Of a stretch of 64,000 nt of DNA, positions 22,363-25,637 are shown piece after piece (position 1 is the stretch's first letter; each line of letters opens with the position of its first letter). Origin of the DNA: Geodermatophilus sabuli (GTDB taxonomy: Bacteria > Actinomycetota > Actinomycetes > Mycobacteriales > Geodermatophilaceae); contig NZ_OBDO01000008.1 in the NCBI RefSeq assembly GCF_900215145.1, positions 1-64,000 on the forward strand, read 5' to 3'. Both the position numbers and the translations under genes were made by a program. The notes below the pieces were generated by a model. The model did no database searches. It was not told the DNA's origin and worked only from the letters and a program-made list of their open reading frames with translations.

Positions 22363-22902
22363 TCAGCCGTTGGCGGCGGCCAGGCGCGCCTCCCACTGGT
22401 CCCCGAGCGTGGCGCCCCACGCGCGGGCCCGCTCCTCCTCGCCCGTGACCAGCGGCCCCTCCGGTGAGGTGACGAGGAAGTGCTCGGCCGGGGCGACCAG
22501 CCGGCAGTGCAGGCGGCCGAGGAGCTTCTCCTCCGTCCGCGACGCGTGGTCTAGCTTGGTGACGAGCTTCGGGTGGTCCATGCGGGTGTCGTAGGCCGCC
22601 GCGGCGATGGCGGGGCCCTCGATGCGCACCTCGTCCAGCCACTCGCGCAGCCCGGCCGCCGGGTCGACGGACAGTCCGTAGTCGCGGTTGGCCCCCTCGC
22701 GGGTGGCGGGGCGCGGCAGGCCGGTCACGTGGTTGGGGGCGCCGACCACGAGCAGCCCGATCTCGGGGCCGAGCGTCGTCGGGGCGTCCGACGCGGCGGT
22801 CACCGTCACGGGCAGCCGCGCGGACAGCCCGTCGGCGATCGCGCGGGCGATGGTCCGGCCGTCGCCGAACAGGGACTCGTAGACCACCAGCGCCTTGGTC
22901 AT
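22363..22902 (-). CDS. Flavodoxin-family protein
   Basis: 179 residues. The N-terminus ALVVYESLFGDGRTIARAIADGL is close to the flavodoxin phosphate-binding pattern (T/S-x-F-G-x-x-x). The LLVVGAPNHVTGLP stretch corresponds to the second FMN loop. The ATG is preceded by GGAGGTG at a good distance. It probably binds FMN and carries electrons, but no obvious redox partner is adjacent. It is transcribed divergently from rtcB. Confidence 0.72.
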   Translation of the reverse strand: MTKALVVYESLFGDGRTIARAIADGLSARLPVTVTAASDAPTTLGPEIGLLVVGAPNHVTGLPRPATREGANRDYGLSVDPAAGLREWLDEVRIEGPAIAAAAYDTRMDHPKLVTKLDHASRTEEKLLGRLHCRLVAPAEHFLVTSPEGPLVTGEEERARAWGATLGDQWEARLAAANG

Positions 22903-23019
22903 GGCGGGCACACCTCCGTGGGTCGTCGTCCTCCCGATGCTGGTCCAGCGGGTGCGGCGGCGCGCCGTCCGGAGGTCCGCAGCGGACGGGACGGACGTCC
23001 CCGGCCGGGGTAGGGCCCC

Positions 23020-24186
23020 ATGGTGGAGAAGATCAGCGACCGCCTGCTCAACTGGGCGTCGATCCTGGAGCCGACCACCCGCCTGCAGGCCGAGCGGACG
23101 GCGTCGATGCCGTTCATCGCCCCGCACATGGCGCTGATGCCCGACGCGCACCTGGGCAAGGGCGCGACCGTCGGCTCGGTGATCCCGACCGACGGGGCGA
23201 TCATCCCGGCGGCGGTGGGCGTGGACATCGGCTGCGGCATGAACGCCGTCCGCACCCAGTTCACCGCGGACGACCTGCGCGGGCGGAACCTGTCGACGCT
23301 GCACGAGCAGATCTCCCGGGCCGTCCCGCTGTCGGCCGGGCGCTACAACAAGAAGCTGCGCGACTCGGCGGCCGCGCGGGTCGCCGAGCTGCGGGACCTG
23401 CCCGGTGCGGCGCAGGCGGACGGCGTCGCACACAACTGGCCGCTGCAGCTGGGGTCGCTCGGGTCGGGCAACCACTTCATCGAGGTGTCGCTGGACGAGG
23501 CCGACCGGGTGTGGCTGTTCCTGCACTCGGGCTCGCGCGGAGTGGGCAACCGGCTGGCGTCCAAGCACATCCGGGTCGCGCAGGACCTCGCGCGGGCCCG
23601 CGAGTTGGACCTCCCCGACCGGGACCTGGCCTACCTCGAGGAGGGGACGCCGGAATTCGACTCCTACGTCGAGGCGCTGCACTGGGCGCAGCGGTTCGCC
23701 TACCTCAACCGCGAGGAGATGATGGACCGCGTCGCCGAGCAGGTCTCGCGGTTCCTGACCACCGAGGTCGAGCGGCAGGTGGAGATCTCCTGCCACCACA
23801 ACTACACCGAGCGCGAGGAGCACTACGGCCGCTCGGTGTGGCTGTCTCGGAAGGGAGCGATCTCGGCGCGGCGCGGGCAGGAGGGGCTGATCCCGGGGTC
23901 GATGGGCGCGGCGTCCTACGTCGTCGTCGGCAAGGGGAACCCGGAGGCGCTGATGTCGGCGCCGCACGGGGCGGGGCGCAACCACTCGCGCGGGCAGGCG
24001 CGGCGGATGTTCACCCGCGCGGACCTGGACCGCCGCATGAAGGGCATCGCGTGGGGCCGCTCCGACGCGTTCCTCGACGAGCACCCCGACGCCTACAAGC
24101 CCATAGACCAAGTGATGTCAGACGCTTCTGATCTGGTGGAGGTGCGTCACACGCTCAGGCAGGTCGTCAACGTGAAAGGTGACTGA
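23020..24186 (+). CDS. rtcB: RtcB-type RNA-splicing ligase
   Basis: 388 residues. RtcB joins 2',3'-cyclic phosphate and 5'-OH RNA ends with GTP and Mn. Visible motifs: MPDAHLGKG, GVDIGCGM, GSLGSGNHFIEV, LHSGSRGVG, SCHHNY and the guanylylation region PHGAGRNHSRGQ. The C-terminus ends in NVKGD, as in complete homologues. Odd feature: from codon ATA at 24103 to the stop, 9 of about 28 codons end in A or T (ATA, CAA, TCA, GCT, TCT, GAT, CGT, AAA, GGT), while such codons are rare before. The change leads straight into the overlapping homing endonuclease gene. Confidence 0.95.
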   Translation: MVEKISDRLLNWASILEPTTRLQAERTASMPFIAPHMALMPDAHLGKGATVGSVIPTDGAIIPAAVGVDIGCGMNAVRTQFTADDLRGRNLSTLHEQISRAVPLSAGRYNKKLRDSAAARVAELRDLPGAAQADGVAHNWPLQLGSLGSGNHFIEVSLDEADRVWLFLHSGSRGVGNRLASKHIRVAQDLARARELDLPDRDLAYLEEGTPEFDSYVEALHWAQRFAYLNREEMMDRVAEQVSRFLTTEVERQVEISCHHNYTEREEHYGRSVWLSRKGAISARRGQEGLIPGSMGAASYVVVGKGNPEALMSAPHGAGRNHSRGQARRMFTRADLDRRMKGIAWGRSDAFLDEHPDAYKPIDQVMSDASDLVEVRHTLRQVVNVKGD

Positions 24187-24712
24187 GTCGGACCTCGTCC
24201 TCCCCTGCTGTACAGGTTTCTTCGACGGAGAGGGGTCGATCGGCATCTATGAGAGTGGAAGCTCACGTGGCCGGACGCTGCGGGTCCAGTTGACCCAGAA
24301 TGCCACGGTCTGCAGTACCGTGCTGCTTCTCGAGTGCCAATCCCGCTGGGGTGGTTCTCTCTGCGTGATGAACCGCACGTACGCGCGTCCCGCATGGAAC
24401 TGGCAGGTCAGTGCCGGCGCAGGCGCCAAGGCGCTCACAGACATCCGCCCCTGGCTCAGGTTGAAGTCCGAAGAGGCAGACATTGCCCTGGAGTGGTGGA
24501 CCAAGCGGCCAGTTCCACAACGCGGCCCCTTGGGCCGCTACCTCCCGTTCACAGCCGACCAACGTGCATTCGACGCTTCAGCAGAGAAGCGACTGAAAGC
24601 CGCCAAGAGTGCCAATGCGCCAGATCGCATCACGAAGCTGACACTCGACGGAATGGACGTCATCGCCCTCGAGCACACGGGAGGCAAGGCATCCGGCGCT
24701 GAGGGCCACTGA
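24179..24712 (+). CDS. LAGLIDADG homing endonuclease (single-motif, I-CreI-like)
   Basis: 177 residues, GTG at 24179 overlapping the last 8 nt of rtcB. The LAGLIDADG helix is TGFFDGEGSIGIY (residues 12-24), with an acidic residue at the metal-binding position. A second segment IRPWLRLKSEEADIALEWW resembles the part of I-CreI that reads QPFLKLKQKQAN. One motif implies a homodimer that cuts a near-palindromic site. GC and codon use are clearly lower than in neighbours, which marks it as foreign. The reading frame is free-standing: RtcB itself is complete and not interrupted by an intein. The target is probably the intact rtcB 3' end (inference). Confidence 0.88.
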   Translation: MTESDLVLPCCTGFFDGEGSIGIYESGSSRGRTLRVQLTQNATVCSTVLLLECQSRWGGSLCVMNRTYARPAWNWQVSAGAGAKALTDIRPWLRLKSEEADIALEWWTKRPVPQRGPLGRYLPFTADQRAFDASAEKRLKAAKSANAPDRITKLTLDGMDVIALEHTGGKASGAEGH

Positions 24713-24737
24713 GGGCCACTGAGGGCCACTGAGGGCC
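24700..24737 (+). repeat. 10-bp tandem repeat at the end of the homing endonuclease gene
   Basis: TGAGGGCCAC occurs three times in a row (24700-24729), followed by a partial copy TGAGGGCC (24730-24737). The endonuclease stop codon TGA (24710-24712) is the start of the second copy. Confidence 0.9.
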
Positions 24738-24773
24738 GACGCCCTCGACCCAGCGTCCCGAGCCGCCCTGGAC

Positions 24774-24791
24774 CGCCCGGGATGCCGGGCG
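24774..24791. terminator. Hairpin between convergent endonuclease and NmrA genes
   Basis: CGCCCGG (24774-24780) pairs with CCGGGCG (24785-24791) around the tetraloop GATG, 3 nt before the end of the convergent gene. Confidence 0.6.
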
Positions 24792-24794
24792 CTC

Positions 24795-25637
24795 TCAGCC
24801 GCTCCAGCCGGTGCCCGCCAGCCAGGTCGGGAGGTCCTGCAGACCGGGCGCCAGTGCGCGGGTGGCGGCGAAGTCGGCGCGGTAGGCCGGGGGCGTCCCG
24901 AACCAGGCGAACATCGCCCGGGAGTCCTCGTCGAGGCCGTCCAGCGGCTGCGCCTCGTAGCGGCCGGGCCGTCCGGCGCGCTCGCCGAACGCCGCGGCGA
25001 TCTGCTCGCCGGTCCGCTCGTCGCCGCCGATCTCGATGCTGCCGCTCGGCACGCGCGAGGGGTCCAGCAGGACGGCGGCGGCGACCGCGCCGATGTCGGC
25101 CACAGCGATCATCTGCAGCGGCACGCCGGCCGGCAGCGGCATCCGGACGACGACCTCGCCGTCGTCCGTCGCCACCATCCACGGCAGGTTCTCCATGAAG
25201 AAGACCGGCCGGACGATGGTCGCGGGCAGGCCGAGGGAGGCGATGTGCTCCTCGACGCGGCGCTTGCTCTCGAAGTGCGGGATGCCGGTGGACCGCTCCG
25301 CGCCGCCGACCGAGTTGAACACCAGATGCTCGACGCCGGCGTCGGCGGCCGCGTCGGCCAGCGAGATCCCCTGCGTGACCTCCGCCTCCGGGCCGCCCTC
25401 GCCGAACGGGGTGGTCATCGCGAACACCCGCTGCGCCCCGCGGAACGCCGTCCGCAGGCTGTCGGGGTCTTGCAGGTCGGCGCGGACGAGCTCGGCGCCG
25501 CGGCCGGCGAGGTCGCCGGCCTTCGCGGGGTCGCGGACCAGCGCACGGACCCGGGCGCCGGCGTCGAGCAGTGCGCGGGCGGTGGCACCGCCCTGCTGAC
25601 CGGTGGCTCCGACGACGGCGAGAAGGGGTTCGGGCAC
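24795..25637 (-). CDS. NmrA-like NAD(P)-binding protein
   Basis: 280 residues. A Rossmann fold opens with LLAVVGATGQQGG, the glycine-rich loop typical of the NmrA/HSCARG group; NSVGGAERS and the HFESKRRVEEHI stretch place it among atypical short-chain dehydrogenases. These proteins often sense NADP(H) or act as regulators rather than classic reductases. The GTG at 25637 was chosen because GAGGAG lies 8 nt upstream and the fold starts at once; upstream in-frame codons overlap the divergent promoter. No substrate can be named. Confidence 0.8.
   Translation of the reverse strand: MPEPLLAVVGATGQQGGATARALLDAGARVRALVRDPAKAGDLAGRGAELVRADLQDPDSLRTAFRGAQRVFAMTTPFGEGGPEAEVTQGISLADAAADAGVEHLVFNSVGGAERSTGIPHFESKRRVEEHIASLGLPATIVRPVFFMENLPWMVATDDGEVVVRMPLPAGVPLQMIAVADIGAVAAAVLLDPSRVPSGSIEIGGDERTGEQIAAAFGERAGRPGRYEAQPLDGLDEDSRAMFAWFGTPPAYRADFAATRALAPGLQDLPTWLAGTGWSG

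Follow-up and report, generated by a model that had tools for sequence, protein, structure and literature searches.

A probable 3'-end-replacing homing element at the rtcB gene of Geodermatophilus sabuli, with relatives in phages and other bacteria

In the window, a 64,000-nt stretch of the Geodermatophilus sabuli genome, the last codons of rtcB are recoded and overlap a gene for a LAGLIDADG homing endonuclease. Such linkage, and in part the recoding, recurs in relatives; in two pairs of phages, nucleotide identity between rtcB genes with and without the endonuclease breaks off near the 3' end, and several members of the family carry a second, displaced copy of the RtcB tail. Judging from these sequence comparisons, we consider it likely that the rtcB tail and the endonuclease gene constitute one mobile unit, a 3'-end-replacing homing element.

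In the proposed mechanism, an I-CreI-like endonuclease, probably acting as a homodimer, would introduce a break into the native 3' end of an rtcB gene that is still empty, and donor-templated repair would then leave the recipient with its own rtcB body while adding the recoded tail and the endonuclease gene of the donor. The synonymously recoded tail would specify nearly the same protein from altered target DNA, and the native tail of the recipient would be pushed downstream of the endonuclease gene. In prokaryotes, where the element is compact, this displaced tail would continue the reading frame of the endonuclease and form its C-terminus, ending at the old rtcB stop; it would also provide the right-hand homology and would decay later.

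The recoded end of rtcB and the overlapping ORF

The rtcB gene of the window (23020-24186, forward strand; PF01139, E 9.8e-119) falls into two parts. Its body (23020..24102, forward strand; PF01139) shows native codon usage, with 282 of 288 codons ending in G or C within the 300 codons 5' of the tail. It is followed by a tail of 27 codons plus the stop (24103..24186, forward strand), proposed to have arrived with the endonuclease, in which the proportion drops to 17 of 26 (P 1.6e-7). The abrupt switch from the ATA at 24103, on which the original prediction was built, is therefore real. Of the 12015 stretches of 27 codons in 33 GC3-rich window ORFs, picked by a mechanical rule, 109 (those of rtcB itself included) had a GC3 as low as that of the tail. 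As had also been predicted, the protein end NVKGD is complete in spite of the recoding, and the RtcB reading frame is uninterrupted and full length. A search of positions 22500-25500 against Rfam at E 1 matched no family, and neither intron RNA nor an in-frame insertion in RtcB was found at this site, in agreement with the earlier view of a placement that involves neither an intron nor an intein.

The endonuclease ORF (24179..24712, forward strand; 177 codons) starts at a GTG within the end of rtcB, the only in-frame ATG, GTG or TTG codon 5' of its motif, and overlaps the last 8 nt of rtcB just as first described. It has a single LAGLIDADG motif, GFFDGEG (24215..24235, forward strand), which includes the conserved acidic residues and is invariant in 10 aligned rtcB-linked members of the family. 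A perfect 10-bp tandem repeat of 3.9 copies (CTGAGGGCCA; 24699..24737, forward strand) begins within the last codons of the ORF, and its unit, CTGAGGGCCA, resembles the native rtcB end AAGGGCGACTGA. The right edge of the element in the window cannot be fixed, since the flank 3' of 24712 has no match in empty relatives until about 25664.

Genes with and without the endonuclease

Within the genus, 26 genomes were searched, some of them draft assemblies, with the window genome listed as G000. Full-length rtcB was found in 22, one (G003) retains only the last 22 codons, and three gave no match, which does not sit well with the earlier description of rtcB as an essential-type gene. The endonuclease is present in two genomes, G000 and G004, directly 3' of rtcB in both, and the two proteins are 65% identical. 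All 20 full-length rtcB genes that lack the endonuclease have tails in which 24 to 27 of the 27 codons end in G or C; the original prediction had named A/T-ending tails in such relatives as the observation that would overturn it, and none of the 20 has one. The G004 tail is recoded in the same manner (ATA, CAA GTG ATG TCA GAC GCT TCT GAT, CTC AGG, AAC GTG AAA). Where the residue is the same, the tails of G000 and G004 use identical codons at 20 of 25 positions; the corresponding figures for comparison with the 20 empty genes are 225/461 for G000 and 177/424 for G004. Before the tail, the nucleotide identity of the two endonuclease-bearing genes to the empty ones (0.83 and 0.88) is close to that among the empty genes (0.86), whereas in the tail it falls to 0.76 and 0.72, against 0.90 among the empty genes.

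Between G000 and G004 the endonuclease genes show pN 0.239 and pS 0.772, compared with a pS of 0.276 for the rtcB body, in which the ceiling on pS is lowered by a GC3 of 98-99%. The low pN points to purifying selection on the endonuclease, and a pS above that of the rtcB body is suggestive of its separate gain by the two genomes. The pS of the rtcB tail is about 0.37 (about 7/20 versus 89/115 for the endonuclease, P 3e-4), so that either the tail is constrained at the DNA level or the histories of the two parts partly differ. An inverted repeat, GCTCGTGCTCTGCCCAC...GTGGGCAGAGCACGAGC, recurs 3' of rtcB in several genus members (e.g. L005, L018, L022 and L023).

Phages provide closely related genes before and after insertion. 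Skinny, which carries the endonuclease gene, and SirSheldon, which does not, differ at 40 positions in the last 180 nt of rtcB and at 8 in the preceding 540 nt. The Skinny gene is inserted immediately after the last base of the rtcB stop codon, and the 983 nt beyond it do not differ from those of SirSheldon; in the control pair, SirSheldon and Bongo, the last 300 nt of rtcB do not differ at all. Likewise, OneUp (with the gene) and BrutonGaster (without it) are free of mismatches between -150 and -69 but differ at 19 of the last 68 positions; the OneUp endonuclease stop with the bases following it aligns with the native rtcB stop and flank of BrutonGaster. For a third phage, Pumpernickel, even the closest empty relatives share no more than about 75-77% identity. 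The breakpoints in both pairs indicate that in two phages the gene arrived along with a changed rtcB end. Alignment of relatives with and without the endonuclease, proposed at the outset as a check, thus places the fall in identity near the 3' end of rtcB, where it was expected.

A recoding of the tail in place, without any transfer, through local selection such as that for a ribosome-binding site of the downstream gene, would account for the AAAGG that is present in the recoded end and in G004 lies 8 nt 5' of the endonuclease GTG. We regard this explanation as very improbable, given that as many as 27 codons are affected, that the recoding starts sharply and is common to two species, and that it is mirrored by the foreign tails of the phage pairs.

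The endonuclease family and displaced gene ends

The window protein on its own fell below the cut-off in a comparison with Pfam LAGLIDADG_1 (E 0.016). A profile built from ten rtcB-linked proteins (G000, G004, OneUp, Skinny, Pumpernickel, L035, L036, L037, L050 and L051) matched, over about 110 residues, an I-CreI-derived single-chain protein with E 8.7e-14, I-CreI with E 3.5e-8 and weaker, and I-MsoI with E 3.4e-5, which places the window endonuclease with the single-motif I-CreI-like enzymes. The rtcB-linked family thus shows both the acidic motif residues and the core-fold homology of LAGLIDADG homing endonucleases. Single-motif I-CreI-like enzymes act as homodimers, and the window endonuclease probably does so as well. 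I-CreI and I-MsoI are encoded in introns of chloroplast rRNA genes; around the window endonuclease, Rfam gave no intron match (22500-25500). No other gene in the G. sabuli genome matched the ten-member profile. A homodimer would be expected to have a pseudo-palindromic target; when a 22-bp palindrome was sought in the final 120 nt of the rtcB consensus for the genus and of five empty phage rtcB genes, no position scored above shuffled sequences.

Just before the motif, the window protein departs from the family consensus: it reads CTGFF where AGFF is usual among the ten aligned members, and a near-invariant Tyr is missing; its C-terminus, too, is degenerate. The protein may be weak or inactive. 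That it is a decayed relic, with the tail left behind by a past event, is possible but on balance doubtful, because the ORF is intact, the motif residues are invariant and pN is well below pS in the comparison with G004; such decay would in any case be compatible with the origin proposed here.

Three phages, two viral contigs and three further bacterial assemblies carry related I-CreI-like endonuclease genes 0-300 nt 3' of rtcB. A tblastn search of 50,697 phage records with the window protein matched 19, of which five, representing the three phages Skinny, Pumpernickel and OneUp, have the gene directly 3' of phage rtcB; two of the other 14 were examined (Ailee and DotProduct), and both matches lie in DNA methylase genes. 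Further scans yielded 15 loci from the genome collection and 233 viral loci, of which 79 were kept. Among the 99 loci checked (L030-L128), nine records, eight of them distinct, have rtcB in the flanks examined (L030, L031, L034, L035, L036, L037, L050, L051 and L052, the last being OneUp again). In the genome scan as in the viral scan, the three best matches are rtcB-linked, and within L030-L128 the closest relatives of the window endonuclease are the rtcB-linked ones. The order scan matched five of 397 genomes and the phylum scan two of 396, with G000 counted in both; three weak matches of the order scan (G078, G088 and G303) lie in longer open frames, and a match in G448, which adjoins what reads like 23S rRNA, was set aside. 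No relative emerged when viral sequences were scanned with the window protein as the single query, and a plasmid search gave no match. The RefSeq record of OneUp labels its endonuclease as HNH; PHROG family phrog_5046, to which these LAGLIDADG proteins match, bears the name HNH endonuclease, as do some phage records. The label of phrog_5046 looks like a misannotation.

Among the bacterial members, the endonuclease gene lies about 50-90 nt behind rtcB in Kutzneria (L037), where neither tail recoding nor a displaced tail was seen. A Burkholderiales member (L036) has an rtcB tail of low GC3 (14/26 GC-ending codons versus 276/284). A nominally significant fall of GC3 in the tail is found in five of the ten members (G000, G004, L036, L050 and Pumpernickel) and also in one of six empty phages, BrutonGaster (P 0.007). 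Base composition alone accordingly proves nothing, and we rejected it as sole evidence. In the viral member L050, an abiF RNA (Rfam RF03085; 2749-2785) adjoining a tRNA array was identified just 5' of rtcB.

In L035, L050 and L051, the endonuclease ORF ends in a second, in-frame RtcB tail that scores far above all 300 shuffles in each case; one such ORF ends in ...EEDLVEIKHELRQVLNVKGD and lies 3' of an rtcB that ends in ...SSDLVEVRYVLRQIVNIKGD. The last 18 codons and the stop of the window ORF (24656..24712, forward strand) probably represent a decayed copy of such a displaced native tail, to judge from their similarity to native tails in the stop-anchored register. In this register, the segment matches native tails at up to 31 of 54 nt (26-31 over the 20 empty genes) and has a BLOSUM score of 23, where shuffled sequences average -15 (P 2e-4). 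When anchoring was dropped, local alignment of the endonuclease end with the native tail reached only P 0.02, and in a nucleotide slide the best value, 31/54, only just exceeds the 30/54 of an unrelated stretch. A gapped test with 17 distinct exact native rtcB tails as queries gave the window a score of 29, which none of 70 control endonuclease C-termini reached (shuffle P 0.003). The same protein-level test was clearly positive for L035, L050 and L051, detected no displaced tail in G004, OneUp, Skinny, L036 or L037 and was marginal for Pumpernickel (shuffle P 0.019, with 8 of 70 controls scoring as high). With Pumpernickel counted among them, six of the ten members show no displaced tail, and the idea that all rtcB-linked endonucleases keep one was rejected.

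Displaced ends are not limited to rtcB. When 148 distinct LAGLIDADG ORFs from the collected loci were screened with a detector of repeated gene ends, for which we roughly estimate about one chance hit, L208 was found to carry the displaced end of a phage terminase large subunit gene (PHROG E 1.1e-45), and the second endonuclease ORF of the L049 contig carries that of a host gene that belongs to no confident family. L163 (score 40, shuffle maximum 34) and L265 (36 and 35) in this screen, and L098 (41 and 38) in the separate shuffle comparison, were too weak to claim. Where the residue is the same, codons match between the two copies at 3/10 positions in L208, 2/12 in L049, 6/16 in L051, 7/11 in L050 and 15/17 in L035. 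The mismatches in the first four, though not in L035, fit a requirement that the protein be kept while the DNA must differ; in L035, from Cellulomonas, the two tails are almost the same, the rtcB body is truncated and the endonuclease gene lies about 300 nt behind. The displaced tails of some relatives, together with the recoding shared by G004 and absent from the empty genes and with the phage breakpoints, support the original idea that the mobile element brought its own RtcB C-terminus.

A different type of endonuclease was also observed at rtcB. In G003 (L297, G003:C6, 8403-9303) the body of rtcB is gone, and a two-motif LAGLIDADG_3 endonuclease (Pfam E 3.4e-9) lies about 34 nt 5' of an orphan native rtcB tail starting with AADLVEV, with synteny to G002 on both sides; this arrangement suggests that a second, different invader has used this site. 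An endonuclease of the G003 type is also encoded by the Bacillus phages Goe17 and BSP36 (L315 and L316, about 1452-2600), beside a group I intron (RF00028) and followed by an annotated part of rtcB; it seems to split the gene. In three genomes of the order (L308, L309 and L310), an endonuclease of this type lies about 90-250 bp from rtcB on the opposite strand, and in L308 only rtcB codons 276-386 were found. Seven closer relatives of the G003 endonuclease (L301-L307) have no rtcB in their 1.5-kb flanks.

Comparison with known homing systems

Intronless homing by the seg and mob enzymes of phage T4, as outlined in parts of PMC2988022, involves genes that adjoin their targets, may overlap upstream ORFs and spread by double-strand-break repair with co-conversion. 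The rtcB-linked gene might likewise be an ordinary free-standing intergenic endonuclease that cuts somewhere in rtcB, in which case the foreign tail would be a mere passenger of co-conversion and no built-in part of the element. The position of the gene after the rtcB stop in Skinny and OneUp, with a co-conversion-like tract of mismatches upstream, agrees with this interpretation, as does the failure to detect a displaced tail in six of the ten members. Against it, the in-frame displaced tails of L035, L050, L051, L208 and L049 require insertion within the coding end, and an onset and recoding common to two species suggest that the tail is kept with the gene; the shared recoded tail, in particular, argues against an endonuclease of the T4 type. 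The T4 enzymes also differ in belonging to the GIY-YIG or HNH families and in cutting hundreds to thousands of bp away, with no displaced tail reported in the same parts of PMC2988022. We therefore judge a free-standing endonuclease to be unlikely and prefer a unit that contains both the tail and the endonuclease gene.

Closer parallels come from eukaryotes. In WHO elements of Torulaspora and Lachancea yeasts, a LAGLIDADG gene lies 3' of full-length FBA1 and no splicing is involved; at each homing event the 3' end of FBA1 gives way to a resistant allele, and the former end is moved downstream (Coughlan et al. 2020, PMC7282813, as described in the sections of that paper used here). The rtcB element resembles them in having an endonuclease gene directly 3' of a full-length host gene in the window, G004, the phages and the other loci (with the exception of L035, where rtcB is truncated) and in that the 3' end of rtcB departs from empty alleles while the preceding part does not, both in the genus and in the phage pairs. 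A displaced old end, the third WHO feature, is clear in L035, L050 and L051, decayed but significant in the window, and undetected in six of the ten members, including G004. According to those sections, WHO proteins are related to inteins and HO and have a zinc finger, and the elements occupy nuclear genes, with large 3' fragments and clusters. In contrast, the rtcB element is found in bacteria and phages, encodes a small I-CreI-like protein, has overlapping genes and, in some members, lets the displaced tail serve as the end of the endonuclease. The ten-member profile matches I-CreI and I-MsoI first, no chain named VDE or HO appears among the 60 of 63 profile matches listed, and Pfam at E 0.1 reveals no zinc finger in the ten rtcB-linked members. 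The element would work like a WHO element or an mORF, yet by protein lineage it lies outside the WHO family.

Mitochondrial mORFs bring foreign C-termini to atp6 (in Allomyces and Glomus), atp9, cox2 and nad3; the foreign C-terminus is fused to the host gene, and the native one is duplicated downstream and is closer to that of relatives (PMC3630166, in the portions used here). As is proposed for the rtcB element, an endonuclease ORF brings a C-terminus and the native end is left downstream. The mORFs differ in residing in organelle genes and in encoding LAGLIDADG or GIY-YIG proteins, and the same portions of PMC3630166 report no such case for rtcB, bacteria or phages. A survey of phage endonucleases describes genes that lie beside essential genes, and RtcB is absent from the text of that survey. 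Among the matches listed for the open-access literature searched, we found no tail-replacing endonuclease of bacteria or phages and none at rtcB.

The strategy therefore has eukaryotic precedents, in yeast nuclei (WHO elements) and in fungal mitochondria (mORFs); what is new here is that the setting is prokaryotic, that phages and bacteria share the specialisation for rtcB, and that the displaced tail has been put to use at the end of the endonuclease. The chances seem to us about even that these genes belong to a general, as yet unnamed class in prokaryotes and phages, comprising homing elements at gene 3' ends, each with a recoded end of its host gene and an endonuclease that ends in the displaced native end, adopted for rtcB, terminase and other genes and exchanged between phages and bacterial chromosomes. 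Occurrence in bacteria and phages, besides yeast nuclei and fungal mitochondria, suggests that this strategy originated repeatedly. Splicing allows introns and inteins to hide in genes that are conserved; the rtcB element would rewrite the end of the gene, leave the protein nearly unchanged and need no splicing. Phage co-infection and Escherichia coli plasmids offer easy systems for studying how a gene might become immune to an endonuclease through synonymous recoding and how homing gives rise to chimeric genes. The element also serves as a warning that the 3' end of a gene can have a history different from that of the rest of the gene.
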